Of a stretch of DNA of 64,000 nt, positions 8,991-45,720 are shown piece after piece (the first letter of the stretch is position 1; each line of letters starts with the position of its first letter). Location of the stretch: assembly GCF_004379255.2 (NCBI RefSeq), contig NC_056037.1, positions 496,001-560,000 on the forward strand. Direction: 5' to 3'. The position numbers were made by a program, and so were the translations under genes. This DNA is from Salvia splendens (Eukaryota > Streptophyta > Magnoliopsida > Lamiales > Lamiaceae). The notes beneath the pieces are model-generated. The model saw nothing but the letters and a program-made list of their open reading frames with translations, ran no database searches and was not told the origin of the DNA.

Positions 8991-9175
8991 TATATGTTCT
9001 AAGAAGGGGATCAGCCTTCGAAGAACAAGATACCTCAGTAACATTTGTAAGAGACGACACACACAGAGACAGACAAAACACACAGACAAAACGCACAGAG
9101 ACAAATAAAGACCAAGCAAACAAAATAAAGCACATTGAGCAAACAGGACTCAAGACTGACTGACCGGACTGTCTC

Positions 9176-12100
9176 TTACAAATGGAACTTTTTGAGGTTG
9201 GAAATGTGCCATGTTCGGGGCACCTGTTCTCCTGACATGTGAGCCAATTTGTAAGACCCTTTGCCGAGGACTTCTGACACCCGATACGGACCTTCCCATG
9301 TGGGTTCGAGCTTGCCCAGCTTTTCTGCTCGGCTTACTTCGTTGTTTCTCAGGACGAGATCTCCCACTTGAAATTGCAGCTTCTTCACCCTTTGGTTGTA
9401 ATACCGGGCTACTTGCTCCTTGTACTTGGCTGCTTTTATGCATGCCAATTCTCTTCTTTCTTCGGCAAGATCTAGCTCGGCTCTCAGTCCGTCATCATTC
9501 ATTTCTGAGGAGAAATTTAGAGTTCGGGGACTGGGTACGCCGATCTCCACCGGAATCACGGCTTCAGTGCCGTATACCAGACTGTACGGAGTTTCACCGT
9601 TGGAGGTTGTGGGTGTAGTTCGGTAGGACCATAGGACTTGAGGGAGATTTTCTACCCATTGTCCTTTGGCTTGTTCTAACCGAGCTTTTAACCCTTTCAC
9701 CAGGATACGATTTGTTACCTCCGTTTGTCCGTTTGCTTGTGGATGAGAGACCGAAGTGAACCGCTGTTGAATATTCAGCTCTTGGCACCAATTCTTGAAC
9801 GTCTTGTCGGTGAACTGAGTCCCGTTATCCGAGATGAGGATGTGGGGTATGCCAAATCGGCACACTATGTTCTTCCAGACGAAATCCAATGCCTTCGAGC
9901 TCGTTATCGTAGCTAATGGTTCAGCTTCCACCCACTTCGTAAAGTAGTCCACGGCAACGATTAGGAATTTCATTTGCCGAGGAGCTTGAGGAAGTGGTCC
10001 CACTATGTCTATGCCCCATTGCATGAAAGGCCAAGGGCTCTGCATAGTGGATAGATCGGTTTGCGGCATCCTTGGGATATTTGCATGGATTTGGCACTTC
10101 GGGCAGGTCTTGACGAGCTGCACTGCTTCTTGTACCAAGGTTGGCCAATAATATCCCCATCTTAGAACTTTTTTAGCTAAAGCTCTAGCTCCGATGTGGC
10201 TGCCGCACGATCCTTCATGAACTTCTCTGAGGATGTAGTCCGTCTCTTCTGGTCCTACGCACCGCAATAACGGCTGGAGGTAAGACTTTCTAAAGAGGAC
10301 TCCTTCATGAAGTTCGTACCGAAGTGCTCGGCACGTGATCTTCCGAGCTTCTCTCTTATCCTCGGGCAATTGTCCTTGATCCAGATACTGCAAGATCGGC
10401 GTCATCCAGTTCGGCGAGCTGGATACTGAATGTACCTCGGCTTCATCAATGCTTCGATGCATTAATTCTTCCGCCTTTGAGCTCGGATCTGAGGCCAACT
10501 TACTTAAGGTATCTGCTCGGCTATTTTCCGCTCTGGGAACGCGGATTATCCGAAAATAGGAGAAACTTCGGCTGATGCTTTGCGCTTTGTCCAAATACTT
10601 CTTCATTCTCTCGTCACGAGCTTCACTCGTACCCAACATGTGATTTACTATGACTTGTGAATCACAATGGACTTTGAGAGATTTGACGAGCAGACTTTGC
10701 GCTAACTGGAGTCCGGCCAGGAGGGCTTCGTACTCGGCTTCATTATTAGTAGTGGGGAATAGGAACCGAAGTGAGTAGGTTACCTCGTGTCCGTCGGGAG
10801 CGACGAGTAAAATACCAGCTCCACTTCCCATCTTGTTTGAAGCTCCATCTACGAATCCGCTCCAGCAGTCTGGCGGCTCTACTTCGGATTCCAAGGGCTG
10901 TGCTAGTTCGGCATTGGCAGACTTTTTCTGTTCGGCAATGACAGGGATTGCTTGATCGAACTTGGCTTCTGTAAGAAAATCTGCCAAGGCTTGTCCCTTG
11001 ATGGCTTTCCGAGGTAGGTACTCGATTGAGTGTTCTCCCAGCTCTATGGCCCATTTGGCGATTCTGCCTGATGCTTCTGGCTTGGTCAAAACTTGCCGAA
11101 GAGGCAGATCGGTTAAGACGCATACCTTGTGAGCATAGAAGTATGGCCGCAGTCTCCTTGCTGCATTTACTAACGCCAGAGCAATTTTTTCCAGAGGTTG
11201 ATACCTTGTTTCTGGACCTCTTAATGCTCGGCTTGTAAAGTAGATGGGAAACTGCTTTAGGCCTTCTTCTCGTACAAGCACCGCGCTGATGGTTTGATCT
11301 GATGCCGCTAAGTATAAGAATATTACTTCGGCTTCGGTTGGAGCAGAGAGAATAGGAAGCTCGGCTAGATAACTTTTGAGCTCGTCAAAGGCCTTTTTCT
11401 GCTCGGCTCCCCACTCGAACTTGGGTGCCTTTTTCAACACCTTGAAGAACGGCAGTTGCTTTTCGGCTGCTTGGGAAAGGAATCGATTCAGTGCGGCTAG
11501 ACATCCGGTTAGCCTTTGCACGTCATGTATGGACTTCGGCATTGCCATGTGCTGAACGACTTGAACTTTTGAGGGATTTGCCTTGAGTCCGTCCTTTGAA
11601 ACCCAACAACCCAGAAATTTTCCTGAATCTACCAAAAAGGTACATTTTTGGGGGTTGAGTTTGAGGTTGGCTTTTCGGAACACGTCGAGAGTGGATTTGA
11701 GGTTGCCTTCGTACTCCGAAGTGCTTTTGCTTTTGACAACTATGTCGTCGACATACACTTCAACCTGTTTCCCGATTAGGTGCCGAAAAAGCTTGTCTAC
11801 CATCCTTTGATAAGTGGCTCCGGCATTCTTTAAACCGAATGGCATCTTTTTATAAGCGAAAATGCCGAAATCGGTAATGAAAGCTGTTTTCGGAGCGTCA
11901 CTCTCATCCATCAACACTTGGTGATATCCTTTGTATAAATCAAGAAAACAGAAAATTTCGAAGCCGATCAAAGCTTCTACTTTTTTATCTATATTCGGAA
12001 GGGGATAGCAATCTTTTGGACAGTGCTTGTTTAGATCGGTAAAATCTATGCACATCCGCCATCCTCCTCCTTTTTTCTTGATCATCACAGGATTGGCCAC

Positions 12101-12472
12101 CCAAGAAGGATATTTCACCTCGAATAGTACATCCGCTTTTAGTAATTGGCGGACTTCGTCATGGATGACTTGGCTTCTTTCTGCCGCAAAGAGTCTTTGC
12201 TTCTGTTTTACTGGCCGGATTGAAGGATCAATATTTGACCGATGAGTGATTACCTCGGGGGGCACTCCGGTCATGTCCAACGGAGACCATGCAAAGACAT
12301 CTTTGTACTCCTTGAGGAGCTGAATGGTCTTTTCCCGGAGTAGAGGCGTTCCTGCGAAGCCGACCTTGACCGTTCTGGATGGATCATCTTCGTATAACTG
12401 AACGGTCATTGAGTTCGGCTCTGAAGTGACTTCGGTCATCTCGCTTGCCTCTGACTCCGGTTGCTGTGATTG
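9176..12472 (-). CDS. retrotransposon pol: RT, RNase H, archaeal-type RNase H, integrase (copy 1)
   Basis: Makes and integrates the element's cDNA. The ATG at 12439 gives 1,087 residues, but the same frame is open from 12472, directly after the gag TAG, so translation by readthrough is the likely route. Numbering from the ATG, reverse transcriptase carries the YVDD box at about 229-232, with FDL-type and PFGL motifs upstream. A gypsy RNase H follows, then a second RNase H (FVDGASN, TNNEAEYEALLAGL) of the archaeal type typical of the Tat lineage. The integrase has an HHCC zinc finger (H...H, CPKC) and a D-D-E core (GIDIVGPL, SDNGTQF, HPQANGQTE). There are no internal stops. It differs from copy 2 at about 31 of 1,087 positions by my count. 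Confidence 0.95.
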   Translation of the reverse strand, partial: QSQQPESEASEMTEVTSEPNSMTVQLYEDDPSRTVKVGFAGTPLLREKTIQLLKEYKDVFAWSPLDMTGVPPEVITHRSNIDPSIRPVKQKQRLFAAERSQVIHDEVRQLLKADVLFEVKYPSWVANPVMIKKKGGGWRMCIDFTDLNKHCPKDCYPLPNIDKKVEALIGFEIFCFLDLYKGYHQVLMDESDAPKTAFITDFGIFAYKKMPFGLKNAGATYQRMVDKLFRHLIGKQVEVYVDDIVVKSKSTSEYEGNLKSTLDVFRKANLKLNPQKCTFLVDSGKFLGCWVSKDGLKANPSKVQVVQHMAMPKSIHDVQRLTGCLAALNRFLSQAAEKQLPFFKVLKKAPKFEWGAEQKKAFDELKSYLAELPILSAPTEAEVIFLYLAASDQTISAVLVREEGLKQFPIYFTSRALRGPETRYQPLEKIALALVNAARRLRPYFYAHKVCVLTDLPLRQVLTKPEASGRIAKWAIELGEHSIEYLPRKAIKGQALADFLTEAKFDQAIPVIAEQKKSANAELAQPLESEVEPPDCWSGFVDGASNKMGSGAGILLVAPDGHEVTYSLRFLFPTTNNEAEYEALLAGLQLAQSLLVKSLKVHCDSQVIVNHMLGTSEARDERMKKYLDKAQSISRSFSYFRIIRVPRAENSRADTLSKLASDPSSKAEELMHRSIDEAEVHSVSSSPNWMTPILQYLDQGQLPEDKREARKITCRALRYELHEGVLFRKSYLQPLLRCVGPEETDYILREVHEGSCGSHIGARALAKKVLRWGYYWPTLVQEAVQLVKTCPKCQIHANIPRMPQTDLSTMQSPWPFMQWGIDIVGPLPQAPRQMKFLIVAVDYFTKWVEAEPLATITSSKALDFVWKNIVCRFGIPHILISDNGTQFTDKTFKNWCQELNIQQRFTSVSHPQANGQTEVTNRILVKGLKARLEQAKGQWVENLPQVLWSYRTTPTTSNGETPYSLVYGTEAVIPVEIGVPSPRTLNFSSEMNDDGLRAELDLAEERRELACIKAAKYKEQVARYYNQRVKKLQFQVGDLVLRNNEVSRAEKLGKLEPTWEGPYRVSEVLGKGSYKLAHMSGEQVPRTWHISNLKKFHL

Positions 12473-12475
12473 CTA
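12467..12475 (-). promoter_or_regulatory. UAG CAA UCA stop-codon readthrough site (copy 1)
   Basis: The gag-protease frame ends in TAG (12475-12473), followed in the same frame by CAA TCA. This fits the tobacco-mosaic-type readthrough consensus UAG CAR YYA. The reading frame continues without a stop into pol. The same nine bases occur in copy 2. Confidence 0.8.
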
Positions 12476-14551
12476 TGCTTGATGGTGCCGAACTGATTGC
12501 TCGGCACTTTTAAGCGCAATCTGTAGACATTCTTTTGCTCTCTTTTGATCACCTCGGATGACCGCTATCCCACCTTTAGTGGGGATCTTGATGGTGAGGT
12601 GATAAGTAGAGCAAACGGCCCGAACTGTGTTGAGCCAGTCTCTCCCCAGGATGATGTTGTACGGAGACCGAGCTTTTACCACAAAGAACTCGATCATCGT
12701 ATTGGAACTTGTAGGCGCCTTTCCCACCGTGATCGGAAGGCTGATAATACCTTCAGGGCGGGTGTCCTCCTGGGCGAAACTTTTCAGAGGAAGTGGAGCC
12801 GGACTGAGCCGAGCTGGATCCACTTCCATTTTATCGAAACATTCTTTAAAAAGAATGCTGACTGACGCTCCTGTATCCACAAATACTCTGTGGATCAGTT
12901 TGTTTGCCACTCCGGCTTGAATGACAATAGCGTCTTGGTGAGGAGAGATGGCTGGGACGGGATCGGCATCTGAAAATGTAATCACTTCGTCTTTCTTCAG
13001 CCTTTTATGTGTTGGCTCCTCTTGATTGGAACCTCTGCGTTCTGCTTTTAGGGACGACTTAGTCTTCCCGGCAGGGAGAGCATCAATAGTCAGGATTACT
13101 CCATCGTATTGCGGCTCGTCGTCGTCTTCGGGATCCTCATGCCTTTTCGGATCCTGAGGATTGCAGTTCGCACCTCTCTGCCTTTTGTTCTTTTTCGGCT
13201 GCTTGCTTTGATATTTTTTTAACGTTCCTGTTTTCACAAGAACATCAATACCTGCAGCCAAATCTCGGCACTCCTCGGTATCGTGTCCGTGGGCTTGATG
13301 GAAGGAGCAATATTGATCCTGAGGTCGCCGCGCGGCCGATTTCGTCATCCGCCTTGGTTTATCGAACATATCGGAATGTAGTTCGAAAATTTCCGCTCTT
13401 GACTTGTTTAAGGGTACGAACTGAGCGGGCGGCTTCTCAGGATTGAGACGTGGTCCCAATCTGCCTTGTACCGGTGCCCTTTGAATTCTTTCAAAAGGAG
13501 TTCGGCGAGGAAGCCTCTGATCGCTATGATCGGGCTTCTTTTCGTCTCCTCGGGATGAGCTGTCTAAAGACCGTTTTCGACGGTCTGCCTCATCCGCACG
13601 GGAAAACTGGTCCGCAATGTCCCACATTTCTTGAGCTGTTTGCGGACCGCACTCCACGAGCTTTCTGTAGAGAGCTCCGGGCAGGATTCCATTTTGGAAT
13701 GCCGAAATGACAAGTAGATCATTGAGATTATCTACTTGTAGGCATTCCTTATGGAATCTCGTCAAGAAATCGCTGATCTTTTCGTCGCGACCTTGACGTA
13801 TAGAAAGCAGCTGAGCCGAAGTGATCCGGGCTTCCGCTTTCTGAAAGAACCTCCTGTGGAAAGCATCCATTAGATCTCGGTAGGATCTAATGCTGCCTTG
13901 AGGAAGGCTGTCGAACCACCTTCTGGCGTTCCCGATGAGCAGCTCGGGGAACAGCTTGCACATATGGACCTCATTGAGACCCTGGTTCGCCATATTATAT
14001 TGATAGCGTCCCAAGAAGTCATGAGGATCCTCTAGCCCGTCATAAGTCATTGACGGTGTCCGGTAGTTCCGCGGCAAAGGAGTTCGGGTGATGTCGTCCG
14101 AGAACGGAGTCTTTAATGCTCCGTACATGGCGAACCCGACATCTCTTCGGTACGGAGGAGATGGAGTTCTCCTGTGGTTCCGGTACCGAGGAGGAACAGG
14201 AACATGTCGGGGTTGAGGATTCTTTCTCCTGGAAGACACGTCACTACTGCGGTAGTGACTTTCATGTCTGGATGAGGAAGGAGAATCCGCCGTTGTCTTC
14301 TCCGGCTGTTGGCTCTTCTGCAGGAAGGTTAAGAACTCCTCCTGCTTCTCGGCCAAGAACAGCTTGACAGCTTCATTTAAATCGGGCTGCTGGGAAGACT
14401 CGGTGCGATGACTCCTGGAGTGGCTTGTTCCTTCTTCGTGAGAACCGGAGGTAGATGTCTCCCGAGGCCGTTTTTCAGACCTGCGAGCTGGACTAGCTTC
14501 CTCACGGTTATTGCGAACGGTATTATGGGTGTTATGTGATCTGGTATGCAT
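12473..14551 (-). CDS. retrotransposon gag-protease (copy 1)
   Basis: Encodes the capsid/nucleocapsid protein and aspartic protease, 692 residues. The N-terminus (1-130) is charged and low-complexity. A Retrotrans_gag domain follows (YDGLEDPHDFLGRY, NARRWFDSLP, FHRRFF). The zinc knuckle is the variant C-x2-H-x4-H-x4-C (CSFHQAHGHDTEEC), as is common in Tat elements. The protease active site DTGAS lies at about residue 559 and the partner motif ILGRDWL about 75 residues later. It ends with a TAG in readthrough context and is in frame with pol. No lesions are seen. Start: ATG at 14551, about 60 nt inside the primer-binding site. Confidence 0.94.
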   Translation of the reverse strand: MHTRSHNTHNTVRNNREEASPARRSEKRPRETSTSGSHEEGTSHSRSHRTESSQQPDLNEAVKLFLAEKQEEFLTFLQKSQQPEKTTADSPSSSRHESHYRSSDVSSRRKNPQPRHVPVPPRYRNHRRTPSPPYRRDVGFAMYGALKTPFSDDITRTPLPRNYRTPSMTYDGLEDPHDFLGRYQYNMANQGLNEVHMCKLFPELLIGNARRWFDSLPQGSIRSYRDLMDAFHRRFFQKAEARITSAQLLSIRQGRDEKISDFLTRFHKECLQVDNLNDLLVISAFQNGILPGALYRKLVECGPQTAQEMWDIADQFSRADEADRRKRSLDSSSRGDEKKPDHSDQRLPRRTPFERIQRAPVQGRLGPRLNPEKPPAQFVPLNKSRAEIFELHSDMFDKPRRMTKSAARRPQDQYCSFHQAHGHDTEECRDLAAGIDVLVKTGTLKKYQSKQPKKNKRQRGANCNPQDPKRHEDPEDDDEPQYDGVILTIDALPAGKTKSSLKAERRGSNQEEPTHKRLKKDEVITFSDADPVPAISPHQDAIVIQAGVANKLIHRVFVDTGASVSILFKECFDKMEVDPARLSPAPLPLKSFAQEDTRPEGIISLPITVGKAPTSSNTMIEFFVVKARSPYNIILGRDWLNTVRAVCSTYHLTIKIPTKGGIAVIRGDQKRAKECLQIALKSAEQSVRHHQA

Positions 14552-14610
14552 TTTTTTGGGGTGGAAAAAGGGTCAAAAATTCGCTTTATCACAAATTTGG
14601 TTCTCTGTTT

Positions 14611-14626
14611 CCCACAGACGGCGCCA
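14611..14626 (-). other. primer-binding site of copy 1
   Basis: TGGCGCCGTCTGTGGG reads on the minus strand one base after the 5' LTR. This is the usual position for tRNA-primed minus-strand synthesis. The priming tRNA is not assigned here. Confidence 0.75.
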
Positions 14627-14627
14627 G

Positions 14628-15317
14628 TGATGAATCGGCGAATTTTTGATGGTGATGAATGCTCGTAAAAATAAAGGAAGATCAACACACAGAGATTTAC
14701 GTGGTTCGATTTACTGAGGTAAATCTACGTCCACGGGAAGAAAAGAGGGCAGAGTTGTATTGCTTGATCTGTTTTCTACAGCTAACAATACAGACTTGCT
14801 ATTTGCTATTTTCTCTCTAGAGAGCTTAACAGAAGTTAACAGAAGGGGCTTATCTATCTGACCTAGGTTCTATTTATACATTGAACCAAGATCGTGGCAT
14901 GCAGCATTTATTAGGTAGTGGATGTCGTGGAGGTCGTGGCGACCTTGCATGGGTCCACTATCCTGCATGAGTTAATGACTGCTTGACACCACTAAATAGA
15001 TCGTCGGTGTAGCGGAGGTGGAAATCTTGCATGAGTCCACTATTTCCTAGTTCGGTCGAATACTGAGACCGGACTGCTGAATTATTGCCGAGCAGCTTTT
15101 GCCGATCTGAGAGTAGAGCTTGATGCCGACCAGAGAGCAGAGTTTGATTGGTTGGCTTTTACCGAGCTGTAGGCTGGGGCCGAACTCTGTGGTTGTGCCG
15201 AACTGAACTCTTGAGTCATGCCGGACTGATACTCTTTAGCCATGCCGAACTGATACTCTTTCTTGGGTTTTACTGCTGTTGGGCTTGTTTAGTATTTGTT
15301 TAGTACGTACTCCATCA
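14628..15317 (-). repeat. 5' LTR of retrotransposon copy 1
   Basis: 690 bp, appears identical to the LTR at 7752-8441. The promoter TATA box (TATAAATA) lies at 14878-14871 on the minus strand, so transcription would run leftward through gag and pol. Confidence 0.93.
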
Positions 15318-34079: not shown

Positions 34080-35215
34080 TGATGGATCCGCGAATTTCTG
34101 ATGTTAGTAAATGCTGGTAGAGAATGAAGATTACGACACAAAGAATTTACGTGGTTCGATTTACTGAAGTAAATCTACGTCCACGGGAAGAAGGGAGGGC
34201 AAGATTGTATTGCTTGATCTGGGATTACAGCTTACAACACAGACTTGCTATATGCTATTTTATCTCTAGAGAGCTTAACCTTTTTCTATCTGATCTAAGT
34301 TCTATTTATACATTGAACTAGGATCGTGGTTTGCAGCCCCACTAACAAGATCGTGGGTGAGCAATAACTGCTCAATAACTGCTCAATAACTGCTTCGTAC
34401 CACTAAATAGATCGTGGGTATAGTGGAGGTCGTGGAGGCCTTTCATGAGTCCACTAACTCCTAGTTCGGTCGAATGCTGAGACCGAACTGCTGGACTTTA
34501 CCGATCAGCTCTTGCCGATTTGAGAGGAGAGCTTGACTGGTCGGCTTTTACCGAGCTGTAGGCTGAGTCCGAACTCTTTGGTCGTGCCGAACTCTTTGGT
34601 GCCGAACAGATACTCTTTCTTGGGCTCTGGGCTGATGGGCCGTCACTGTTATTGGGCTTACGACACAAAGAATTTACGTGGTTCGATTTACTGAAGTAAA
34701 TCTACGTCCACGGGAAGAAGGGAGGGCAAGATTGTATTGCTTGATCTGGGATTACAGCTTACAACACAGACTTGCTATATGCTATTTTATCTCTAGAGAG
34801 CTTAACCTTTTTCTATCTGATCTAAGTTCTATTTATACATTGAACTAGGATCGTGGTTTGCAGCCCCACTAACAAGATCGTGGGTGAGCAATAACTGCTC
34901 AATAACTGCTCAATAACTGCTTCGTACCACTAAATAGATCGTGGGTATAGTGGAGGTCGTGGAGGCCTTTCATGAGTCCACTAACTCCTAGTTCGGTCGA
35001 ATGCTGAGACCGAACTGCTGGACTTTACCGATCAGCTCTTGCCGATCTGAGAGGAGAGCTTGACTGGTCGGCTTTTACCGAGCTGTAGGCTGAGTCCGAA
35101 CTCTTTGGTCGTGCCGAACTCTTTGGTGCCGAACAGATACTCTTTCTTGGGCTCTGGGCTGATGGGCCGTCACTGTTATTGGGCTTGCCATTAGGGTTTA
35201 GTTCGTACCCCATCA
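34080..35215 (-). repeat. 3' LTR of copy 2 with internal 527-bp tandem duplication
   Basis: The first copy runs from TGATGGATCC at 34080 to 34659; at 34660 the sequence jumps back to ACGACACAAAG, which already occurred at 34133, and runs to CATCA at 35215. The length is exactly 609 + 527. The junction has a 2-bp (TT) shared base match. The two units are nearly identical; one difference is GATTTGAG in the first against GATCTGAG in the second and in the other LTR. Confidence 0.93.
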
Positions 35216-35407
35216 CTACCCCCCCCGAAAAGCGAAGTGAATCACTTCGGCGAGGTGAGTCACTTCGGCATTCTGGATAACGGTAAGGGGGAGGCTGACG
35301 TCAGGGGACGTGCCTTGCATTAAATGCGACAGTAAAATCAGGCCGTTGAATCCTGAAAAGGTGGGATTCGAAACGGTGCGACGATCTTGAAATCTTCGCC
35401 GAATCTG

Positions 35408-35414
35408 ATAAATA
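35408..35414 (+). promoter_or_regulatory. putative TATA box of the antisense gene in copy 2
   Basis: ATAAATA lies about 130 bp upstream of the antisense gene's ATG on the plus strand, 193 bp inside the LTR edge. Supported by motif and spacing only. Confidence 0.35.
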
Positions 35415-35538
35415 CCTCCTTTCTTCATCATTGAAGCACTTTTGCTGTTGCGTCTTCTATACTCTCTCTTTCTCGAGAAATTTTCTTCCGCTTTCAAGAG
35501 CTTCCTCAGACTTTCTTCACCTTCAAAAAGTAAGAAAA

Positions 35539-37398
35539 ATGTCTTCTTCTTCTTCTTCGGAGTCGGGTAGCGTTAGGAGAGGCGGTAAGGGGTCTTCTGG
35601 CCGGAAAGAGTCCGGGGAGAAGACCGTAGAGTATTTCCATAGTATTTTGAGTAAGGATACTGTGATATCCCTACCCGAAAAATACTTTTTTCCTGGGGGG
35701 AAGGCGGTGGTACCTGACGGTGATCATAGGGCTGACTCCCCGCCGGAGGGGTACGCCACCGTGTACGAGGCCTGCTTAGAATGCGGGCTTCGTTTCCCCC
35801 TCCCTTCTGCCTTTATAGATTTACTAGATTTTTTTCAGCTTCCTTTAGGCCAAGTGACTCCGAACTCTTGGAGGCACTTGTCGGCCTTCGCTGCCGAACT
35901 CCGTAGGTTAGGAAGGGATTTGTCTTTGAAGGCGATCCTTAAATTCTTTCAATTTAAGAGGAAGGGGTCTTGGTTTTACTTGATCCCTTTACAGCCCTTT
36001 AGGGCCTTTTGTAAAACGAAGTGGCCGAAGTGGCAAAATCGCTTCTTCTACTATGATAGGACCGCGGCTCCTAGTTTTCCCTGGAGAGGGCCGGAGTCCG
36101 TTATCCGTCATCCTCGGCCTGAACCGTTGGACGAGCTCGATGGCGAGCTCAACAAGATTCCCATAGTTAGGAAACAATACACGGAGTCTGAGCTCGTCAA
36201 GGGCGACGTCGTGTTCGACATCTCGTCTTCGGACGAAGAGGCCGAGGGTGAGGATTTCTCTTTATCTTTATGCTCTACTGCTTTAACGAAGAAAATCTGA
36301 CTTTGCTTTCTTGCTTTTTGGCAGTGTACATGCTGAATAAGGCTAGCCGCAAATCTTCGGAGTCCAAGGAGCCGGCGAGGCCGAAAACCACCAGCTCGGC
36401 GTCTGATGCCGAGAGGACTCCGAAAAGGCAAAAAACCTCTTCGGATCCGAAGAAGCCGGAGTCGACTTCGGCAAAGGGGAAGGGGAAGGCCCAGAAGCCC
36501 CCGAGAGCGCCAGAGAAAGATGTGGTCTTGGCGCCTCCTTCGGAACATATCTGTGAGCCGTTTTTATGGCCCACGGACTTCGCCGAGGTGAATTCTCTTC
36601 TTGATTTTCTGGCCTTGCTTTTTTCCTGTATTTTTTGTGGCCCCTTTGTTGACTTTTTTCTTTATCCATTTTCAGAGGAACGATATGCTCTCCAAGCTCG
36701 TCGCCGTCGAACTCTCCAAAGCGTCCAATGACTATGCTGAGATGCAGAGGAAGTTGGCGGCTGCTTGTCATCGGGCCGAACAGGCTGAGGCTAACTTTGA
36801 GAAAGCCAGAGCTGCTAGGATTTCGGCCCAGGATGAAGCTCAGTTTGCCAAAAACCAGCTCGTCATCCAGCGAGAGCAGACGAAACGGAGGGATGCTGCC
36901 GCCGTGGCTGCCCAGGGGGAGGCTCTCCGTGTTTACACGGAGAAACTCTTTTTGAGCAGCCAGTTCTCGGCCTTTGTCGGTAGTCTGGTAAGGCTAATTG
37001 CCGATAAGGGCGAGCAGGGGGCCGACGTCGTGCTGCCTCTGTACAGCCGAGAGATAGCAGCTCGGCTTCAGAATCTGCCGCTCCTTGAGGAGCTCGCTTC
37101 ATCCTCGGTCCTGCTTTCTGCAGACCGAGTCCGGAGTTGTCGAGCTGATCGGGACGAGAACCTGGAGGCTATCTTTGCCTCCGTGGGACCCGTTTCACCC
37201 GCTTCGACTTACAACGGAGAGGGTGAGGCCGAGCCGCTGGAGCTGGAGGCCGAAGTCGAGCGGGCCGGGCATCCGGAGAAGGAAGCCGATCAGGAGGCGG
37301 AGGCGAGGCCGGCAGGAGGCGAGGCCGAGGCTGAGGTAGCTCAGGAGAAAGAAGCTGAACCAGACCAAGGAGCCGGAGACGAAGCTGGTGGAGTATGA
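35539..37398 (+). CDS. antisense retrotransposon gene 1: Transposase_28-like protein with two introns
   Basis: Runs opposite to gag-pol. Exons 35539-36247, 36325-36587 and 36676-37398 join with GT-AG introns of 77 and 88 bp; the sum of 1,695 nt gives 564 residues with consistent phases. Residues about 30-175 match the plant domain known as Transposase_28 / putative gypsy-type transposon (PPEGYATVYEACLECGLRFPLP, GQVTPNSWRHLSAF, GSWFYLIPL, KWQNRFFYYD). The middle is basic and Ser/Pro-rich with a likely nuclear signal (TPKRQKTSSDPKK). Exon 3 begins with a long coiled coil (about residues 325-400) and ends in an acidic Glu/Ala tail. Function is unknown; the name does not imply transposase activity. 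Start: ATG before the Ser run. An in-frame ATG 108 nt upstream lies nearer the putative TATA box. Confidence 0.82.
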
Positions 37399-37599
37399 TT
37401 TCGTCTCCCTTCTCTTAGTCTAGTTTCTTCCTTGTAAAATGGCCTTGAAGCCCTCTTAGTGTAAAAATTTTCCTTGTGAATGAAAAATTCTCTACACTTG
37501 TCTTCGTATAGCTTTTCGTACTCGCCTTTATTCCTGTTGTATTTTACTATCTGCTCGGTACAGCTGCCGAACTAATATAGCTGCTTTGTACTCAAGGAG

Positions 37600-38388
37600 A
37601 TGGAGATACTTCACTGGAAACGGCTGTACTCTTCGGCTTTAGACGAAGCTGAGAAAAGAGCTATAGCCGATCAGACGAAGAATGACGAGCTTCTGGCTCG
37701 TTTAGTGAAGCTGGAGGCCGATAATAAGGACTTAGAGTCCGATAAGAAGGATCTGGAGGCCGAGCTGAATACGACCATTGCTGAGAGGACTGCGTACGAG
37801 GATTACATCCGTGTGCGCGGGGGAGTGACCATATCAGATGTTCAGAGTCGAGTTGACGAACTGTGGGAGGAATATCATGTACTCCGGAGGAACAATGCGC
37901 TGGAGAGCTCGGCTTGCCAACAAGTTGTGAAATCATTGCGGCGCTGGGCTTCTCGGTACAACATTGTTCTTTCTCGGCGCCCCTCCATAGAAAGATTCCT
38001 TCGGCATATCGTGCCAACAGATGCTCGCACTCCAGATCAAACCTCTGGTTCCCTTGTTCAAAATCCTACTCCCAGTCAACAACGAACTCCGGAACAGCCG
38101 GAAACGTCAAGACGAGAACGGGCTCAGGAGCAACCGGAATCGTCAAGACAGGGACGGACTGAAATTCGCCGAGGAGTTGTGACTATGAGCGAGCAAGATC
38201 AGCAGATGCTTATTGCAGAGACTCTTCATCGCCGAGGTGTTAGGACTTCTCGGGCTCGGGGAAGAGGCGTTGGGTCGAGGATAGCATCTCGTCGACCTGC
38301 TTATTCTTCATCTGCTCGGAACAACCGAACTCGGCTTCCAGAGGATTTTGCAGATAGGTGGCTTAACTTCAGCAACCCTGGACAGTAG
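37600..38388 (+). CDS. antisense retrotransposon gene 2: coiled-coil basic protein, unknown
   Basis: 262 residues, same strand as antisense gene 1 and about 200 bp behind it. I do not recognise a domain. Residues about 15-70 form a strongly heptad-patterned charged coiled coil (LLARLVKLEADNKDLESDKK). About 150-185 hold two similar Pro/Glu/Arg units (QPETSRRERAQ, QPESSRQGRTE). The C-terminus is Arg-rich with RTSRARGRGVGSR, suggesting nucleic-acid binding. It could be a separate transcript or the 3' exon of a longer antisense transcript; no convincing splice link to gene 1 is visible because gene 1 ends in a TGA at 37398. Absent from copy 1. Confidence 0.6.
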   Translation: MEILHWKRLYSSALDEAEKRAIADQTKNDELLARLVKLEADNKDLESDKKDLEAELNTTIAERTAYEDYIRVRGGVTISDVQSRVDELWEEYHVLRRNNALESSACQQVVKSLRRWASRYNIVLSRRPSIERFLRHIVPTDARTPDQTSGSLVQNPTPSQQRTPEQPETSRRERAQEQPESSRQGRTEIRRGVVTMSEQDQQMLIAETLHRRGVRTSRARGRGVGSRIASRRPAYSSSARNNRTRLPEDFADRWLNFSNPGQ

Positions 38389-38529
38389 AATAGTCCTTTG
38401 TAATAGCGTAACGCCATTTTGTAGGGTAGCGGAGTTGTATGCCGAACAAGATTTGAAAAATGAAATTTTGTTTTCGCTTCTAACACTGTATTTACAGCTT
38501 AGCGAAAAAATTTCATCGTACTTGTCCTC

Positions 38530-38764
38530 GGTCTTATGAAGTAAACTTCTTTGACCGGACTTGGTCCTTGGTCTTATGAAGTAAACTTCTTTGACCGGAC
38601 TCGTCTTTGGTCTGATGAAATAAACATCTTTGACCGGACTCGTCTTTGGTCTGATGAAATAAACATCTTTGACCGGACTCGTCTTTGGTCTGATGAAATA
38701 AACATCTTTGACCGGACTCGTCTTTGGTCTGATGAAATAAACATCTTTGACCGGACTTGGTATG
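38530..38764. repeat. 39-bp tandem repeat array in copy 2
   Basis: Six units starting at 38530, 38570, 38609, 38648, 38687 and 38726; the core is GGTCTGATGAAATAAACATC followed by TTTGACCGGACTCGTCTTT. Because 39 is a multiple of three, both strands stay open across the array. Two further diverged units lie at about 38860 and 38906. Copy 1 has a single unit near 8518. Confidence 0.92.
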
Positions 38765-38984
38765 TGTTCTAATTTGGCGATTTGCCGCCGGGATCGAACT
38801 TTCCCTTGTCCTAATTCGGCGAGTTTTATCGCGTGGATCGGACTTTCCCAGTTAACCGAAGTGGTCTTATGCAGTAAACCTCTTTGACTAGACGTGGTCG
38901 TCCCCGGTCTTATGAGGTAAACTTCTTTGACCGAACTTGGTCGTCCTAATTCGGCGAGGTTCATCGCGTGGATCGGACTTTCCC

Positions 38985-39245
38985 TTATTGCAGTTCGTTT
39001 CAGACGAAGTGCTTATTTCTTAAGCCGAATTGTGGTCTTGTATCTTCCTGAGAAGCTTGGACTCACAATCGTTGGCTTATTGCAGTTCGTTTCAGACGAA
39101 GTGCTTGTTAAGCTGAATTGCGGTCTTGTATCCTCCTTGGAAGCTTGGACTCACAATCGTTGGCTTATTGCAGTTCGTTTCAGACGGACTGCTTGTTAAG
39201 CTGAATTGTGGTCTTATATCCTCCTTAGAAGCTTGGACTCACAAT
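38985..39245. repeat. about 90-bp tandem repeats next to pol in copy 2
   Basis: Three units of about 88-92 bp, each starting TATTGCAGTTCGTTTCAGACG and ending in ACTCACAATCGTTGGCT or a variant. Homologous to 8722-8990 in copy 1. Confidence 0.85.
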
Positions 39246-39489
39246 AGTCTTTAATAATCGATCTAAAAAGGGGATCAGTCTTTAAAGAACGATATACCTT
39301 GGTACCATTTGTAAGAGACGACAAGCACATAGAGACAAAACACATAAAAAAAAATGAAAAAGATGAAAGAAAAAAAACTTTAAACTTTTTATAAAACGAC
39401 AAGTAAAAGGTGCAAGTAAGAAACAAACAAATAAAAACATATACCCCTATGACCGAACTAGACACGAGACGGACTGACCGGACTGTCTC

Positions 39490-42400
39490 TTACAAGTGGA
39501 ACTTCTTGAGGTTGGAGATGTGCCATGTTCGGGGTACTTGTTCTCCTGACATGTGAGTCAATTTATAAGACCCTTTGCCGAGGACTTCTGACACCCGATA
39601 TGGACCCTCCCATGTGGGTTCGAGTTTGCCCAGCTTTTCTGCTCGGCTTACTTCGTTGTTTCTCAAGACGAGATCTCCCACTTGAAATTGAAGCTTTTTC
39701 ACCCTTTGGTTATAATACCGGGCTACTTGCTCCTTATACTTGGCTGCTTTTATGCACGCCAATTCTCTTCTTTCTTCGGCGAGATCTAGTTCTGCTCTCA
39801 GTCCGTCGTCATTCATTTCTGAGGAGAAATTTAGAGTTCGGGGACTGGGTACGCCGATCTCCACCGGAATTACGGCTTCAGTGCCGTACACCAGACTATA
39901 CGGAGTTTCACCGTTGGAGGTTTTGGGTGTAGTTCGGTAGGACCATAGGACTTGAGGGAGATTTTCTACCCATTGTCCTTTGGCTTGTTCTAACCGAGCT
40001 TTTAACCCTTTCACCAGAATCCGGTTCGTTACTTCCGTTTGTCCGTTTGCTTGGGGATGGGAGACCGAAGTGAACCGCTGTTGAATGTTCAGCTCTTGGC
40101 ACCAATTCTTGAACGTCTTGTCGGTGAACTGAGTCCCATTATCCGAGATGAGGATGTGGGGTATGCCAAATCGGCACACTATGTTCTTCCAGACGAAGTC
40201 CAATGCCTTTGAGCTCGTTATCGTAGCTAATGGTTCAGCCTCCACCCACTTCGTGAAGTAGTCCACGGCAACGATAAGGAATTTCATTTGCCGAGGAGCT
40301 TGAGGAAGTGGTCCCACTATGTCTATGCCCCATTGCATGAAAGGCCAAGGGCTTTGCATAGTGTATAGATCGGTCTGCGGCATCCTTGGGACATTTGCAT
40401 GAATTTGGCACTTCGTACACTTCTTGACGAGCTGCACTGCCTCTTGTACCATGGTTGGCCAATAATATCCCCATCTCAGAACTTTTGTAGCTAAAGCTCT
40501 GGCTCCGATGTGGCTACCGCACGATCCTTCATGAACTTCTCTGAGGATGTAGTCCGTCTCTTCTGGTCCTACGCACCGCAACAACGGCTGGAGGTAAGAC
40601 TTTCTAAAGAGGACTCCTTCATGAAGTTCGTACCGAAGTGCTCGGCACGTGATCTTCCGAGCTTCTCTCTTATCCTCGGGCAATTGTCCTTGATCCAGAT
40701 ACCGCAAGATCGGCGTCATCCAGTTCGGCGAGCTGGATACTGAATGTACCTCGGCTTCATCAATGCTTCGATGCATTAATTCTTCCACCTTTGAGCTCGG
40801 ATCTGAGGCCAACTTACTTAAGGTATCTGCTCGGCTATTTTCCGCTCTGGGAATGCGGATTATCCGAAAATAGGAGAAACTTCGGCTGATGTTTTGCGCT
40901 TTGTCCAAATACTTCTTCATTCTCTCGTCACGAGCTTCACTTGTACCCAACATGTGATTTACTATGACTTGTGAATCACAATGGACTTTGAGAGATTTGA
41001 CGAGCAGACTTTGCGCTAACTGGAGTCCGGCCAGGAGGGCTTCGTACTCGGCTTCATTATTAGTAGTGGGGAATAGAAACCGAAGTGAGTAGGTTACCTC
41101 GTGTCCGTCGGGAGCGACAAGTAAAATACCAGCTCCACTTCCCATTTTGTTTGAAGCTCCATCTACGAATCCGCTCCAGCAGTCCGGCGGCTCTACTTCG
41201 GATTCCAAGGGCTGTGCTAGCTCGGCATTGGCAGAATTCTTCTGTTCGGCAATAACAGGAATTGCTTGATCGAACTTTGCTTCTGCAAGAAAATCTGCCA
41301 AGGCTTGTCCCTTGATGGCTTTCCGAGGTAGATATTCAATTGTGTGCTCTCCCAACTCTATAGCCCACTTGGCGATTCTGCCTGATGCTTCTGGTTTGGT
41401 CAACACTTGCCGAAGTGGCAGATCAGTTAAGACGCATACCTTGTGAGCATAGAAGTATGGCCGCAGTCTCCTTGCTGCATTTACTAATGCCAGAGCAATC
41501 TTTTCCAGAGGTTGATACCTGGTTTCTGGACCTCTTAATGCTCGGCTTGTAAAATAGATGGGAAGCTGCTTTAGGCCTTCTTCTCGTACAAGCACCGCGC
41601 TGATGGTTTGATCCGATGCCGCTAAGTATAAGAATATTACTTCGGCTTCGGTTGGAGCAGAGAGAATAGGAAGCTCGGCTAGGTAACTTTTGAGCTCGTC
41701 AAAGGCCTTTTTCTGCTCGGCTCCCCACTCGAACTTTGGTGCCTTTTTCAACACCTTGAAGAACGGCAGTTGCTTTTCGGCTGCTTGGGAAAGGAATCGA
41801 TTCAGTGCGGCTAGACATCCGGTTAGCCTTTGCACGTCATGTATGGACTTCGGCATTGCCATGTTCTGAACGACTTGAACTTTTGAGGGGTTTGCCTTGA
41901 GTCCGTCCTTTGAAACCCAACAACCCAGAAACTTTCCCGAATCTACCAAAAAGGTACACTTTTGGGGATTAAGTTTGAGGTTGGCTTTCTTGAGCACGTT
42001 GAGAGTGGACTTGAGGTTGTGCTCGTACTCCGAAGTGCTTTTGCTTTTGACGACTATATCGTCAACATACACTTCGACCTCCTTTCCAATCAGGTGCCGA
42101 AAAAGCTTGTCTACCATCCTTTGATAAGTGGCTCCGGCATTCTTTAAACCGAATGGCATCTTTTTATAAGCGAAAATGCCGAAATCAGTAATGAAGGCCG
42201 TTTTTGAAGCGTCAATCTCATCCATTAAAACTTGATGGTATCCCTTGTATAGATCAAGAAAACAAAAAATTTCAAAGCCTATCAAAGCTTCTACTTTTTT
42301 ATCTATGTTCGGAAGGGGATAGCAATCTTTGGGACAGTGCTTATTTAGATCGGTGAAATCTATGCACATCCGCCATCCTCCTTCCTTTTTCTTGATCATG

Positions 42401-42780
42401 ACAGGATTGGCTACCCACGAAGGATACTTCACTTCGAATAACACATCCGCCTTCAATAATTGACGGACTTCGTCATGGATGACTTGACTTCGTTCTGCCG
42501 CAAAGAGTCTTTGCTTCTGTTTTATCGGCCGGACTGAAGGATCAATATTTAACCGATGAGTGATTACCTCGGGGGGCACTCCGGTCATGTCCAACGGAGA
42601 CCATGCAAAGACGTCTTTATACTCCTTGAGGAGCTGGATGGTTTTTTCCCGAAGTAGGGGCGTTCCCGCGAAACCGATCTTAACCGTTCTGGATGGATCG
42701 TCTTCGTACAGCTGAACTGTCATCGAGTTCGGCTCCGGTATGACTTCGGTCATCGCCTCTGACTCCGGCTGCTGTGATTG
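39490..42780 (-). CDS. retrotransposon pol: RT, RNase H, archaeal-type RNase H, integrase (copy 2)
   Basis: Intact pol; the frame is open from directly after the gag TAG, and the internal ATG at 42753 gives 1,087 residues. YVDD reverse-transcriptase box, two RNase H modules and integrase (HHCC finger with CTKC, D-D-E core) as in copy 1. The leader between TAG and the ATG is two codons shorter than in copy 1, an in-frame difference that fits translation through the stop. Inference: the element could be autonomous. Confidence 0.95.
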   Translation of the reverse strand, partial: QSQQPESEAMTEVIPEPNSMTVQLYEDDPSRTVKIGFAGTPLLREKTIQLLKEYKDVFAWSPLDMTGVPPEVITHRLNIDPSVRPIKQKQRLFAAERSQVIHDEVRQLLKADVLFEVKYPSWVANPVMIKKKEGGWRMCIDFTDLNKHCPKDCYPLPNIDKKVEALIGFEIFCFLDLYKGYHQVLMDEIDASKTAFITDFGIFAYKKMPFGLKNAGATYQRMVDKLFRHLIGKEVEVYVDDIVVKSKSTSEYEHNLKSTLNVLKKANLKLNPQKCTFLVDSGKFLGCWVSKDGLKANPSKVQVVQNMAMPKSIHDVQRLTGCLAALNRFLSQAAEKQLPFFKVLKKAPKFEWGAEQKKAFDELKSYLAELPILSAPTEAEVIFLYLAASDQTISAVLVREEGLKQLPIYFTSRALRGPETRYQPLEKIALALVNAARRLRPYFYAHKVCVLTDLPLRQVLTKPEASGRIAKWAIELGEHTIEYLPRKAIKGQALADFLAEAKFDQAIPVIAEQKNSANAELAQPLESEVEPPDCWSGFVDGASNKMGSGAGILLVAPDGHEVTYSLRFLFPTTNNEAEYEALLAGLQLAQSLLVKSLKVHCDSQVIVNHMLGTSEARDERMKKYLDKAQNISRSFSYFRIIRIPRAENSRADTLSKLASDPSSKVEELMHRSIDEAEVHSVSSSPNWMTPILRYLDQGQLPEDKREARKITCRALRYELHEGVLFRKSYLQPLLRCVGPEETDYILREVHEGSCGSHIGARALATKVLRWGYYWPTMVQEAVQLVKKCTKCQIHANVPRMPQTDLYTMQSPWPFMQWGIDIVGPLPQAPRQMKFLIVAVDYFTKWVEAEPLATITSSKALDFVWKNIVCRFGIPHILISDNGTQFTDKTFKNWCQELNIQQRFTSVSHPQANGQTEVTNRILVKGLKARLEQAKGQWVENLPQVLWSYRTTPKTSNGETPYSLVYGTEAVIPVEIGVPSPRTLNFSSEMNDDGLRAELDLAEERRELACIKAAKYKEQVARYYNQRVKKLQFQVGDLVLRNNEVSRAEKLGKLEPTWEGPYRVSEVLGKGSYKLTHMSGEQVPRTWHISNLKKFHL

Positions 42781-42783
42781 CTA
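42775..42783 (-). promoter_or_regulatory. UAG CAA UCA stop-codon readthrough site (copy 2)
   Basis: TAG at 42783-42781 followed by CAA TCA in the shared gag-pol frame, the same as copy 1 and matching the UAG CAR YYA readthrough consensus. Confidence 0.8.
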
Positions 42784-44865
42784 TGCTTGGTGGTGCCGAT
42801 CTGACTGCTCGGCACTTCTAAGCGCAATTTGCAGACATTCCTTTGCTCTCTTTTGGTCACCTCGGATGACCGCTATCCCTCCTTTAGTAGGGATCTTGAT
42901 GGTGAGGTGATAGGTGGAGCAAACGGCCCGAACTGTGTTGAGCCAGTCTCTTCCCAGGATGACGTTGTACGGGGACCGAGCTTTCACCACGAAAAACTCA
43001 ATCATCGTACTGGAGCTAGTAGGCGCTTTCCCCACCGTGATCGGAAGGCTGATAATACCTTCAGGGCGGGTGTCCTCCTGGGTGAAGCTCTTCAGGGGAA
43101 GCGGAGCCGGACTGAGCCGAGCTGGATCCACTTCTAGTTTGTCGAAGCACTCTTTAAAAAGAATGCTAACCGACGCTCCTGTATCCACAAACACCCTGTG
43201 GATCAGTTTGTTTGCCACTCCGGCTTGGATGACAATGGCGTCTTGGTGAGGAGAGATGGCCGGGACGGGATCAGCAGCCGAGAACGTAATCACTTCGTCC
43301 TGCTTCAGCCTTTTATGCGTTGGCTCCTCTCGATTGGAGCCTCTGCGTTCTGACTTTAGGGACGACTTGGTCTTCCCGGCAGGGAGCGCGTCAATAGTCT
43401 GGATTACTCCATCATATTGCGGCTCGTCATCGTCTTCGGGATCCGGCTGCCTTTTCGGATCCTGAGGAGCGCAGTTCGCACCACTCTGCTTTTTATTCTT
43501 CTTTGGCTGCTTGCTTCGGTATTTTTTCAATGTCCCTGCCTTCACAAGAACATCGATACCTGCAGCCAAGTTTCTGCACTCCTCAGTATCGTGACCGTGG
43601 TCTTGATGGTAGGAGCAGTAGCTATCCTGTGGTCGGCGCGCAGCTGATTTCGTCATCCGCTTTGGCTTTTCGAATAGGTCAGAGTGCAGTTCGAAAATTT
43701 CCGCTCTCGGCTTGTTCAGCGGTACGAACTGGGCGGGCGGCTTCTCGGGATTGAGACGAGGTCCCAATCTGTCTTGCACCGGAGCCCTTTGAATTCTTTC
43801 AAATGGAGTCCGGCGAGGATGCCCCTGATCGCTATGATCGGGCTTCCTTCTGTCTCCTCGGGTCGATGAGCTGTCTAACGACCGTTTGCGACGGTCTGCC
43901 TCATCGGCCCGGGAGTACTGGTCCGCAATGTCCCACATTTCCTGAGCTGTCTGCGGACCGCACTCAACGAGCTTCCTGTAGAGAGCTCCGGGCAGGATTC
44001 CATTTTGGAATGCCGAGATGACAAGCAGATCGTTGAGATCGTCTACTTGCAGGCATTCTTTGTGGAATCTTGTCATAAAGTCGCTGATTTTTTCGTCGCG
44101 ACCTTGACGAATGGAAAGCAGCTGAGCCGAAGTGATTCGGGCTTCCGCTTTCTGAAAGAACCTCCTGTGGAAGGCATCCATTAGATCTCGGTAAGATCTG
44201 ATGCTGCCCTGGGGGAGGCTATCGAACCACCTTCTCGCGTTCCCGATGAGCAGCTCGGGAAACAGCTTGCACATGTGGACCTCGTTGAGACCCTGGTTCG
44301 CCATGTTATATTGATAGCGCCCCAAGAAATCGTGAGGGTCCACGAGCCCGTCGTAAGTCATCGACGGAGTTCGGTAGTTCTGTGGTAGGGGAGTTCGGGT
44401 GATGTCGTCCGAGAACGGAGTCTTCAGTGCTCCGTACACGGCGAATCCGATATCTCGTCGGTATGGAGGAGATTGAGTTCTCCTGTGATTCCGGTACCGA
44501 GGAGGAACAGGAATATGTCGGGGTTGAGGATTCTTCTTCCTGGAAGACACGGCACTACTGCGGTAGTGACTTTCTTGTGCGGAGGGAGAAGGAGAATCCG
44601 CCGATTTCGTCTCCGGCTGCTTTTGGCCTTTTCGCAGGAAGGTTAAGAATTCCTCCTGCTTCGCCGCCAAAAACTGCTTGACAGCCTCATTCAAATCGGG
44701 CTGCTGGGAAGACTCAGTGGGACGATTTTTGGAGCGGCTTGTTCCTTCGCCATGAGAACTGGTGGTGGATTTATCCCTAGGCTGTTTTCCAGACCTATGG
44801 GATGGATTGGCTTCCTCCTGGTTCTCACGGGCAGGAATACGGGTACTCTGCGATCTGGTATGCAT
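42781..44865 (-). CDS. retrotransposon gag-protease (copy 2)
   Basis: 694 residues: charged N-terminus, Retrotrans_gag domain (YDGLVDPHDFLGRY to FHRRFF), zinc knuckle C-x2-H-x4-H-x4-C (CSYHQDHGHDTEEC) and aspartic protease DTGAS with ILGRDWL. Most differences from copy 1 sit in the first 130 residues and in the linker before the protease. No stops or frameshifts. Confidence 0.94.
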   Translation of the reverse strand: MHTRSQSTRIPARENQEEANPSHRSGKQPRDKSTTSSHGEGTSRSKNRPTESSQQPDLNEAVKQFLAAKQEEFLTFLRKGQKQPETKSADSPSPSAQESHYRSSAVSSRKKNPQPRHIPVPPRYRNHRRTQSPPYRRDIGFAVYGALKTPFSDDITRTPLPQNYRTPSMTYDGLVDPHDFLGRYQYNMANQGLNEVHMCKLFPELLIGNARRWFDSLPQGSIRSYRDLMDAFHRRFFQKAEARITSAQLLSIRQGRDEKISDFMTRFHKECLQVDDLNDLLVISAFQNGILPGALYRKLVECGPQTAQEMWDIADQYSRADEADRRKRSLDSSSTRGDRRKPDHSDQGHPRRTPFERIQRAPVQDRLGPRLNPEKPPAQFVPLNKPRAEIFELHSDLFEKPKRMTKSAARRPQDSYCSYHQDHGHDTEECRNLAAGIDVLVKAGTLKKYRSKQPKKNKKQSGANCAPQDPKRQPDPEDDDEPQYDGVIQTIDALPAGKTKSSLKSERRGSNREEPTHKRLKQDEVITFSAADPVPAISPHQDAIVIQAGVANKLIHRVFVDTGASVSILFKECFDKLEVDPARLSPAPLPLKSFTQEDTRPEGIISLPITVGKAPTSSSTMIEFFVVKARSPYNVILGRDWLNTVRAVCSTYHLTIKIPTKGGIAVIRGDQKRAKECLQIALRSAEQSDRHHQA

Positions 44866-44924
44866 TTTTTGGGTGGAAAAAATGGATCAAAAATTCGCTT
44901 TATCACAAATTTTGTTCTCTGTTT

Positions 44925-44940
44925 CCCACAGACGGCGCCA
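44925..44940 (-). other. primer-binding site of copy 2
   Basis: TGGCGCCGTCTGTGGG one base inside the 5' LTR, identical to copy 1. The priming tRNA is not assigned. Confidence 0.75.
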
Positions 44941-44941
44941 G

Positions 44942-45550
44942 TGATGGATCCGCGAATTTCTGATGTTAGTAAATGCTGGTAGAGAATGAAGATTACGACA
45001 CAAAGAATTTACGTGGTTCGATTTACTGAAGTAAATCTACGTCCACGGGAAGAAGGGAGGGCAAGATTGTATTGCTTGATCTGGGATTACAGCTTACAAC
45101 ACAGACTTGCTATATGCTATTTTATCTCTAGAGAGCTTAACCTTTTTCTATCTGATCTAAGTTCTATTTATACATTGAACTAGGATCGTGGTTTGCAGCC
45201 CCACTAACAAGATCGTGGGTGAGCAATAACTGCTCAATAACTGCTCAATAACTGCTTCGTACCACTAAATAGATCGTGGGTATAGTGGAGGTCGTGGAGG
45301 CCTTTCATGAGTCCACTAACTCCTAGTTCGGTCGAATGCTGAGACCGAACTGCTGGACTTTACCGATCAGCTCTTGCCGATCTGAGAGGAGAGCTTGACT
45401 GGTCGGCTTTTACCGAGCTGTAGGCTGAGTCCGAACTCTTTGGTCGTGCCGAACTCTTTGGTGCCGAACAGATACTCTTTCTTGGGCTCTGGGCTGATGG
45501 GCCGTCACTGTTATTGGGCTTGCCATTAGGGTTTAGTTCGTACCCCATCA
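44942..45550 (-). repeat. 5' LTR of retrotransposon copy 2
   Basis: 609 bp, starts TGATGGATCC and ends CATCA. TATAAATA promoter motif on the minus strand at 45172-45165. No internal duplication, unlike the other LTR. Confidence 0.94.
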
Positions 45551-45720
45551 CTTATTTTATGTATGATGTATAAATTAATAATACTCCACTATTGCTAATT
45601 TTGCTCAGATATTATTTGCTCATATATTATTTATAGTATTATAAAAAATGTGTTGTGATCAATGTCAAACCCTTCTTAAAGACTGAACTAGAGACCAAAT
45701 ATCATTCACCCATTAATCAC

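Follow-up and report, generated by a model that had tools for sequence, protein, structure and literature searches.

Does a retrotransposon of Salvia splendens carry, on the strand opposite to its own genes, a true intron-bearing gene, and what might the product of such a gene do for the element? The question arises from a 64,000-nucleotide stretch of contig NC_056037.1 (assembly GCF_004379255.2, positions 496,001 to 560,000; hereafter the window), in which an initial annotation, made from the letters alone, had proposed a spliced antisense module of two genes inside a retrotransposon. That interpretation is partly supported here: the intron-bearing antisense gene stands, while the description as two genes is weakened.

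The module lies in an LTR retrotransposon, element B, whose flanks were read directly. Its components are as follows:

34080..45552, minus strand: element B, LTR retrotransposon
44942..45552, minus strand: 5' LTR of element B, 611 bp
42781..44865, minus strand: gag-protease
39490..42753, minus strand: pol, with reverse transcriptase (RT), RNase H, a second RNase H-like domain (RVT_3) and integrase
38389..39489: tandem-repeat arrays with 39- and 88-bp units and nine same-orientation GACCGRACT sites
34080..35213, minus strand: 3' LTR, tandemly duplicated (34080-34659 and 34658-35213)

The LTRs of element B are 99.8-100% identical and a 5-bp target duplication, CTTAT, flanks both ends, which argues that the element is young. 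The gag-protease frame scores above the cut-off for Retrotrans_gag and weakly for a protease model (E 1.9e-4, below its cut-off), and the domains found in pol are RVT_1, RT_RNaseH, RVT_3 (at 530-648) and rve. We take the RVT_3 match to be an archaeal-type RNase H (aRH). In the available text of PMC6317226, aRH is given as a Tat feature. Element B combines the reverse transcriptase, RNase H, second RNase H and integrase of Tat/Retand elements with a long region between pol and the 3' LTR that holds an antisense TRP28 frame (4,276 bp; PF04195, E 5.6e-12). The LTR measures 611 bp, the internal region 9,728 bp and the pol-3' LTR region 4,276 bp, for which the published Retand range is 2,933-6,566 bp (PMC11963269, in the part available). 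Because of its pol and gag domain content and of sizes that fall inside the published Retand ranges, element B belongs to the Tat group and is probably a Retand element.

Between pol and the 3' LTR, on the opposite strand, a gene with junctions 36247/36325 and 36587/36676 had been proposed, and position, strand and junctions all prove exact. Gene 1, on the plus strand at 35539-37398, needs two GT-AG introns, of phases 1 and 0, to give a product of 564 residues in one frame:

35539..36247, plus strand: exon 1, 709 nt, with the Transposase_28 domain at residues 75-138
36248..36324, plus strand: intron 1, 77 nt, phase 1; GT-AG in 70 of 70 loci, lengths 71-97 nt
36325..36587, plus strand: exon 2, 263 nt, basic linker with KRQK
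36588..36675, plus strand: intron 2, 88 nt, phase 0; GT-AG in 70 of 70 loci, lengths 75-91 nt
36676..37398, plus strand: exon 3, 723 nt, coiled-coil segment and acidic tail

The product has the three features that the initial annotation had ascribed to it. Exon 1 matches Transposase_28 (TRP28, PF04195) in Pfam with an E-value of 5.6e-12 and 46.2 bits, above the curated cut-off of 26.2; a coiled coil near residues 338-370 is supported by a crude heptad score, which reaches 0.80 where the 95% value of shuffled sequence is 0.68; and 21 of the C-terminal 70 residues are D or E. No Pfam match was found for exon 3. In composition, the introns (GC 0.35-0.36, T 0.44-0.56) are distinct from the exons (GC 0.51-0.60, T 0.16-0.28). 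Chance open frames were rejected as an explanation: among 500 first-order Markov sequences of the region, read on both strands, ATG frames of at least 262 residues never arose and frames of at least 253 residues arose once. By codon usage, which gives weak scores here, gene 1 and, narrowly, the downstream frame termed ORF2 beat all 1000 shuffles, and for exon 1 alone the coding frame was not the best of six. A search of ORF2, exon 1 and the 564-residue product against a set of 5.8 billion proteins gave no match at E 1e-3, with one search scoring only the 7,995 candidates that shared most words. Exon 1 had no relatives among IMG/VR and GTDB contigs, as expected if those collections hold few plant sequences; the best E-values in a search of solved structures were 0.35 and 0.69, and the single-sequence AlphaFold model of exon 1 (pLDDT 42.6) was unusable.

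The introns were compared across copies in the same 806-Mb genome that holds the window. Both GT-AG pairs are present at all 70 loci, which comprise 28 near-identical copies (the window copy included), 30 TRP28 loci, eight further loci and four RT-less elements. Of 2,743 first-look TRP28 candidates, the best 150 were scored, all above the Pfam cut-off, and the 30 loci were drawn from these in descending order of score, a choice that favours intact copies. At each of the 30, the introns start with GT and end with AG at homologous positions, intron 1 measuring 71-97 nt and intron 2 either 75-78 or 86-88 nt, and the spliced frame is fully open in 24 and broken in six. The eight further loci all retain both splice-site pairs, with an intron 2 of 78-91 nt and indels that sit in pyrimidine tracts; a canonical open model was found in four of them, the others being L059, L060, L062 and L064. 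Both pairs are likewise kept in 28 of 28 near-identical copies, where gene 1 has no stops, though its start codon is damaged in one copy and ORF2 contains a stop in a different one, and in four of four RT-less elements, whose open products have 564-568 residues. Intron-length changes are not multiples of three, yet most spliced frames stay open; splice sites, phases and frame are conserved across diverged copies. The invariant GT-AG pairs, the drifting lengths with the frame mostly kept and dN/dS ratios below 1 together support the introns strongly by comparison, and gene 1 is very probably an intron-bearing spliced gene under selection.

For gene 1, dN/dS is 0.24-0.51 in 24 pairs (with the six broken TRP28 loci left out) and 0.20-0.49 in eight pairs (three shared with the 24-pair set; L032, L059, L060, L062 and L064 left out; bootstrap upper limits at most 0.70), pooled values that mix histories, since synonymous divergence differs between exons and makes gene 1 a mosaic. 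Between subfamilies, dS is 0.02-0.09 in exon 1 and 0.40-0.69 in exon 2, and such closeness of one exon beside divergence of the other is a sign of recombination between lineages. For ORF2, comparison with six divergent copies gave dN/dS of 0.41-0.51 (upper limits 0.64-0.78); two close pairs (0.44 and 0.98, limits above 1) are uninformative, and three pairs among other loci gave 0.44-0.48, with one limit above 1. Judged from their codons, both reading frames are under purifying selection. Neutral codon evolution with frequent stops, which would have spoken against the proposed module, is not seen in these copies, which were taken best-scoring first. At 0.2-0.5, the module is less tightly constrained than the enzyme-coding part of the element, for which the comparison of element B with a second element of the window, element A, gave 0.06 in pol and 0.12 in gag.

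A promoter of its own had also been suggested for the antisense gene, and conserved promoter-like motifs next to the 3' LTR are consistent with this:

35214..35538, plus strand: predicted promoter and 5' UTR of the antisense gene, with paired GTGAATCAC/GTGAGTCAC motifs, TGACGTCA, GGGGACGTGC and GATAAATA

Within these 325 bp from LTR to ATG, GGGGACGTGC occurs in nine of nine aligned copies, and about 130 bp 5' of the ATG seven of the nine have GATAAATA and two have GAAAAATA. The element-A lineage keeps only the start of this stretch. The accompanying argument, that introns can persist in such a position, is sound in its logic: the genomic RNA comes from the opposite strand and so carries the introns in antisense, where retrotransposition would leave them in place.

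Antisense TRP28 genes are already a published hallmark of Retand elements, and the Salvia splendens module refines that kind. According to the available text of the Vicient 2025 survey (PMC11963269), antisense TRP28 ORFs occur in 97% of Retand clusters, their function is called unknown and probably DNA-binding, and TRP28 is predicted to bind DNA. Like gene 1, these ORFs carry the PF04195 domain, run antisense and sit between pol and the 3' LTR with tandem arrays nearby, in elements whose reported size ranges include the sizes of element B. They differ in having been described as ORFs, called with ORF Finder, whereas here one gene has two conserved introns, so that ORF calling would split it into several ORFs; in the survey's available text, no word begins with 'intron'. 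In maize, Grande GENE23 (gene23) is likewise antisense between pol and the 3' LTR, with transcription from its own promoter and a nuclear product reported (PMC7264820 on Gomez-Orte 2013, in the part available), and the same text calls for examination of antisense and spliced transcripts. A further parallel is HBZ of HTLV, a deltaretroviral gene that runs antisense close to the 3' end of its LTR element and has a nuclear regulatory role (PMC11963269, in the part available); no homology to it is claimed, and the promoter-like motifs sit here in the internal region adjoining the LTR. In the literature searched, which did not reach to the primary Grande account, we found no description of conserved introns in antisense Retand/Tat genes. 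What is new is the comparative intron evidence, two reciprocal partial families and a motif, GACCGRACT, common to LTR and tandem array.

Downstream of gene 1 lies the frame that had been described as a second gene, encoding a coiled-coil, Arg-rich protein of no known family:

37393..37596, plus strand: candidate third intron, GGA/GTATGA ... CTCAAG/GAG, phase 0 to phase 0, or intergenic leader of ORF2
37600..38388, plus strand: ORF2, 262 residues, with a long N-terminal helix and an Arg-rich tail; ATG not conserved

The Arg-rich character is confirmed (20 R and no K in the C-terminal 100 residues), and a profile search of the 262-residue protein returned no Pfam match above a cut-off. The coiled coil, however, finds no support in the heptad score (0.55 against a shuffled 95% value of 0.62); a single-sequence model has one helix at residues 2-74, with block-mean pLDDT of 91-97 over residues 1-60 and of 69 and 61 over residues 61-80. 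The reading frame itself is conserved. A homologous ORF lies downstream of gene 1 in eight of eight further loci, seven of them without internal stops, and among the best 146 scored of 3,019 first-look candidates in a genome search, 143 have no stops, at 97-100% identity. It is the unconserved ATG that weakens the second-gene label.

In favour of ORF2 as an independent gene, translated from ATG or CUG and served by its own promoter, are the ATG found in 28 of 28 near-identical window-family copies (window included), an ATG or CTG at this position in 12 of 13 distinct copies (G at both -3 and +4), and a conserved inter-ORF segment with AATGAAA-like and TATAGC-like sequences. Among those 13, however, the first codon is ATG in only five (CTG in seven, ACG in one), and in six of six aligned CTG copies an AAATGCC lies 5' of the start, in what would be the leader. 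The segment is moreover intron-like in composition (GC 0.39, T 0.40), with a phase-0 donor at 37392 and a phase-0 acceptor at 37596 conserved in nine of nine aligned copies, both of them weak (3.1 and 4.6 on an approximate PWM, by which introns 1 and 2 reach 5.9/7.6 and 8.4/10.0). Coding conservation begins abruptly at AAG/GAG; immediately 5' of this point the families differ in length by 8 or 9 nt. Two other splice sites were rejected, a TATAG acceptor 5' of ORF2 whose phase differs between families in the alignment, and the conserved AGG/GTGAGG at 37222, which as a donor has the wrong phase. Given the unconserved ATG, the phase-0 sites at 37392 and 37596 and an intron-2 donor that is also phase 0, ORF2 would be a cistron that starts at CUG/AUG or else one more exon at the end of the gene-1 transcript unit, and we slightly favour the exon. 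Two independent genes come near to an even chance, falling a little short of it.

The window also holds a related element that has no module:

7752..15317, minus strand: element A, with open gag and pol, identical 690-bp LTRs and no module

Module loss in element A is a deletion common to many copies. A genome-wide count of the LTR dyad, GTTCGGTCGAATRCTGAGACCGRACTGCT, gave 5,848 sites, against 0 for its reversed control. The first 100 of the sites listed (C1, 11.8 Mb) include 51 same-strand neighbours within 20 kb, at spacings of 6.3-7.2 kb in 23 cases, 9.0-10.8 kb in 13 and other values in 15; the 11 plus-strand members of the 23 and five of the 13 were sampled. In the short class (about 6.9 kb), seven of 11 run from the 3' LTR straight to pol and share the element-A junction, and the other four carry gene 1. 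Those four have the same breakpoints, two deletions having removed the protease region, reverse transcriptase, RNase H and the integrase core, and they retain Gag 1-354, a 173-bp piece around the gag-pol boundary, about the last 120-145 residues of pol and an open gene 1. All five sampled members of the long class carry gene 1. For the A-type junction there were 1,955 first-look candidates; 40 places, one of them in the window itself, were scored, and all 40 have the junction whole at 99-100% identity. Two partial families are reciprocal to each other: the first has gag-pol and lacks the module, the second has the module and part of Gag and lacks reverse transcriptase. Because module-less elements are abundant, in both the sampled elements and the scored junctions, the module is not needed in cis. 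Table 1 of PMC11963269, in the part available and as we read it, has the same pattern among Retand elements: rows with NO in GAG, AP, RH or INT are all YES for TRP28, and both rows without TRP28 have complete gag-pol.

A candidate target for a trans-acting product is the motif GACCGRACT, which occurs 15 times in element B, always in LTR or array and never in gag, pol or the module exons; 41.5 kb of window sequence beyond the elements has 0 sites. In the LTRs it forms a dyad:

34463..34489, also 34990-35016 and 45325-45351: LTR dyad, AGTTCGGTC-N9-GACCGAACT

The dyad was found upstream in 29 of 30 loci. Across six LTRs, 21 of its 25 positions do not vary, where the LTR mean is 53%, a conservation that another LTR block exceeds (24 of 25) and that is to be read in the light of the shared ancestry of the compared families. 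In the arrays, 63 of 63 sites from seven copies (the window and L067-L072) have one orientation, which stays uniform although at least two of the seven arrays use other unit lengths. VANC proteins of VANDAL elements recognise same-orientation motif arrays in non-coding parts (PMC5735166, in the part available). The likeness is of a protein encoded by a transposable element together with a dense, short, one-orientation motif in tandem arrays in the non-coding parts of that element; the differences are that VANDALs are DNA transposons and that binding and demethylation were demonstrated for VANC, while for gene 1 they would follow only by inference. The analogy is one of working; Pfam gave only Transposase_28 for exons 1 and 3. 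That GACCGRACT is the DNA target of the spliced protein is a tentative and rather doubtful suggestion.

The best explanation as a whole, to which we assign a probability of about 0.6, is a spliced antisense accessory gene whose TRP28/coiled-coil product regulates the LTRs of the family in trans; retention of the module in the RT-less family counts in its favour and the abundance of module-less elements against it, a sister family having amplified after losing the module. The plus-strand gene would be transcribed from the internal promoter-like region and spliced at its two introns, and ORF2 would be expressed with CUG/AUG as its start or else be joined to the same transcript unit as a further 3' exon. 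The product would enter the nucleus and bind DNA, as a published predictor suggests for TRP28, and might recognise the GACCGRACT sites of the LTR dyad and of the same-orientation array adjoining the module; by analogy with VANC, it may counteract silencing by the host or activate transcription from the LTR. For the product as a nuclear trans-acting regulator, taken alone, we would give even odds. The fullest version is a split system, in which a four-exon antisense gene (TRP28, basic linker, coiled coil, and ORF2 as an alternative or extra last exon) would make an anti-silencing regulator that recognises GACCGRACT in dyad and array and serves, in trans, both gag-pol-only elements and RT-less module elements as mutual parasites; so complete a picture is improbable.

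A role away from the LTR, with the proteins acting in the particle or the pre-integration complex (nuclear import, packaging), would suit the RT-less elements, which keep Gag 1-354 and the module as if these were parts worth keeping, and a role like that of retroviral accessory proteins has been suggested (PMC7264820, in the part available). Yet A-type gag-pol elements amplified without the module, so that any such role would be in trans or dispensable, and we think it unlikely. The module might instead act mainly as antisense RNA that pairs with genomic RNA and feeds silencing or limits transposition, its proteins mattering little. Antisense transcription with siRNA production has been proposed for such elements (PMC7264820, in the part available) and the promoter-like motifs are conserved, but a non-coding unit would not be expected to show selection at the protein level in both frames, nor exons that keep their frame next to introns that drift, which makes this very unlikely. 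That the introns are an artefact of decayed frames, as the six broken TRP28 loci and the four further loci without a canonical open model might suggest, is almost certainly wrong and was rejected, since the GT-AG positions are the same at every locus and intron indels lie in pyrimidine tracts.

A spliced antisense accessory gene acting in trans thus remains our preferred reading, and an intron-bearing antisense gene explains how introns can persist in a retroelement. Surveys based on ORFs only would cut the spliced gene into unrelated pieces; the intron-bearing unit gives the right protein to express and test. The partial families, together with a candidate motif, make the function of the antisense protein directly testable and, if the VANC-like reading is true, the module would represent an anti-silencing system in an LTR retrotransposon.

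Apart from element B, the Tat-group LTR retrotransposon that carries the antisense module, the window holds the following features:

7752-15317, (-), element A, a related element that lacks the module; its gag and pol frames are open and its two 690-bp LTRs identical
27859-28392, (-), gene of the plastocyanin family (PF00127, E 4e-37), located between elements A and B
48518-49969, (+), region with a match to the DDE transposase family Plant_tran (PF04827) at 49253-49969
56782-57417, (-), piece with a Pfam match to the PRONE domain (PF03759), probably from a host Rop exchange factor gene

No matching target duplication flanks element A (CTTAC on the left versus TCGAG on the right), a pattern suggestive of recombination between copies. 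A fragment at 50753-51283 looks related to the Plant_tran transposase region, and a Pfam scan of this fragment gave no match.

The 3' LTR of element B (34080-35213) is itself duplicated in tandem, and the first of the two copies stops short, at 34659. When six LTRs were compared, the most conserved block was found at about positions 72-110, counted from 44942; it has 24 of 25 positions invariant and contains GATTTAC-TGAA-GTAAATC, a perfect short hairpin.

Four RT-less elements sampled in the same genome (L079+L093, L084+L095, L085+L096 and L086+L094, each pair being one element) retain the antisense module together with Gag 1-354 and the tail of pol, and their deletion points are identical in all four. 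Among the gene 1 loci L029-L058, synonymous divergence is strongly unequal between exon 1 and exon 2, a pattern that an exchange of exon 1 between subfamilies would produce.
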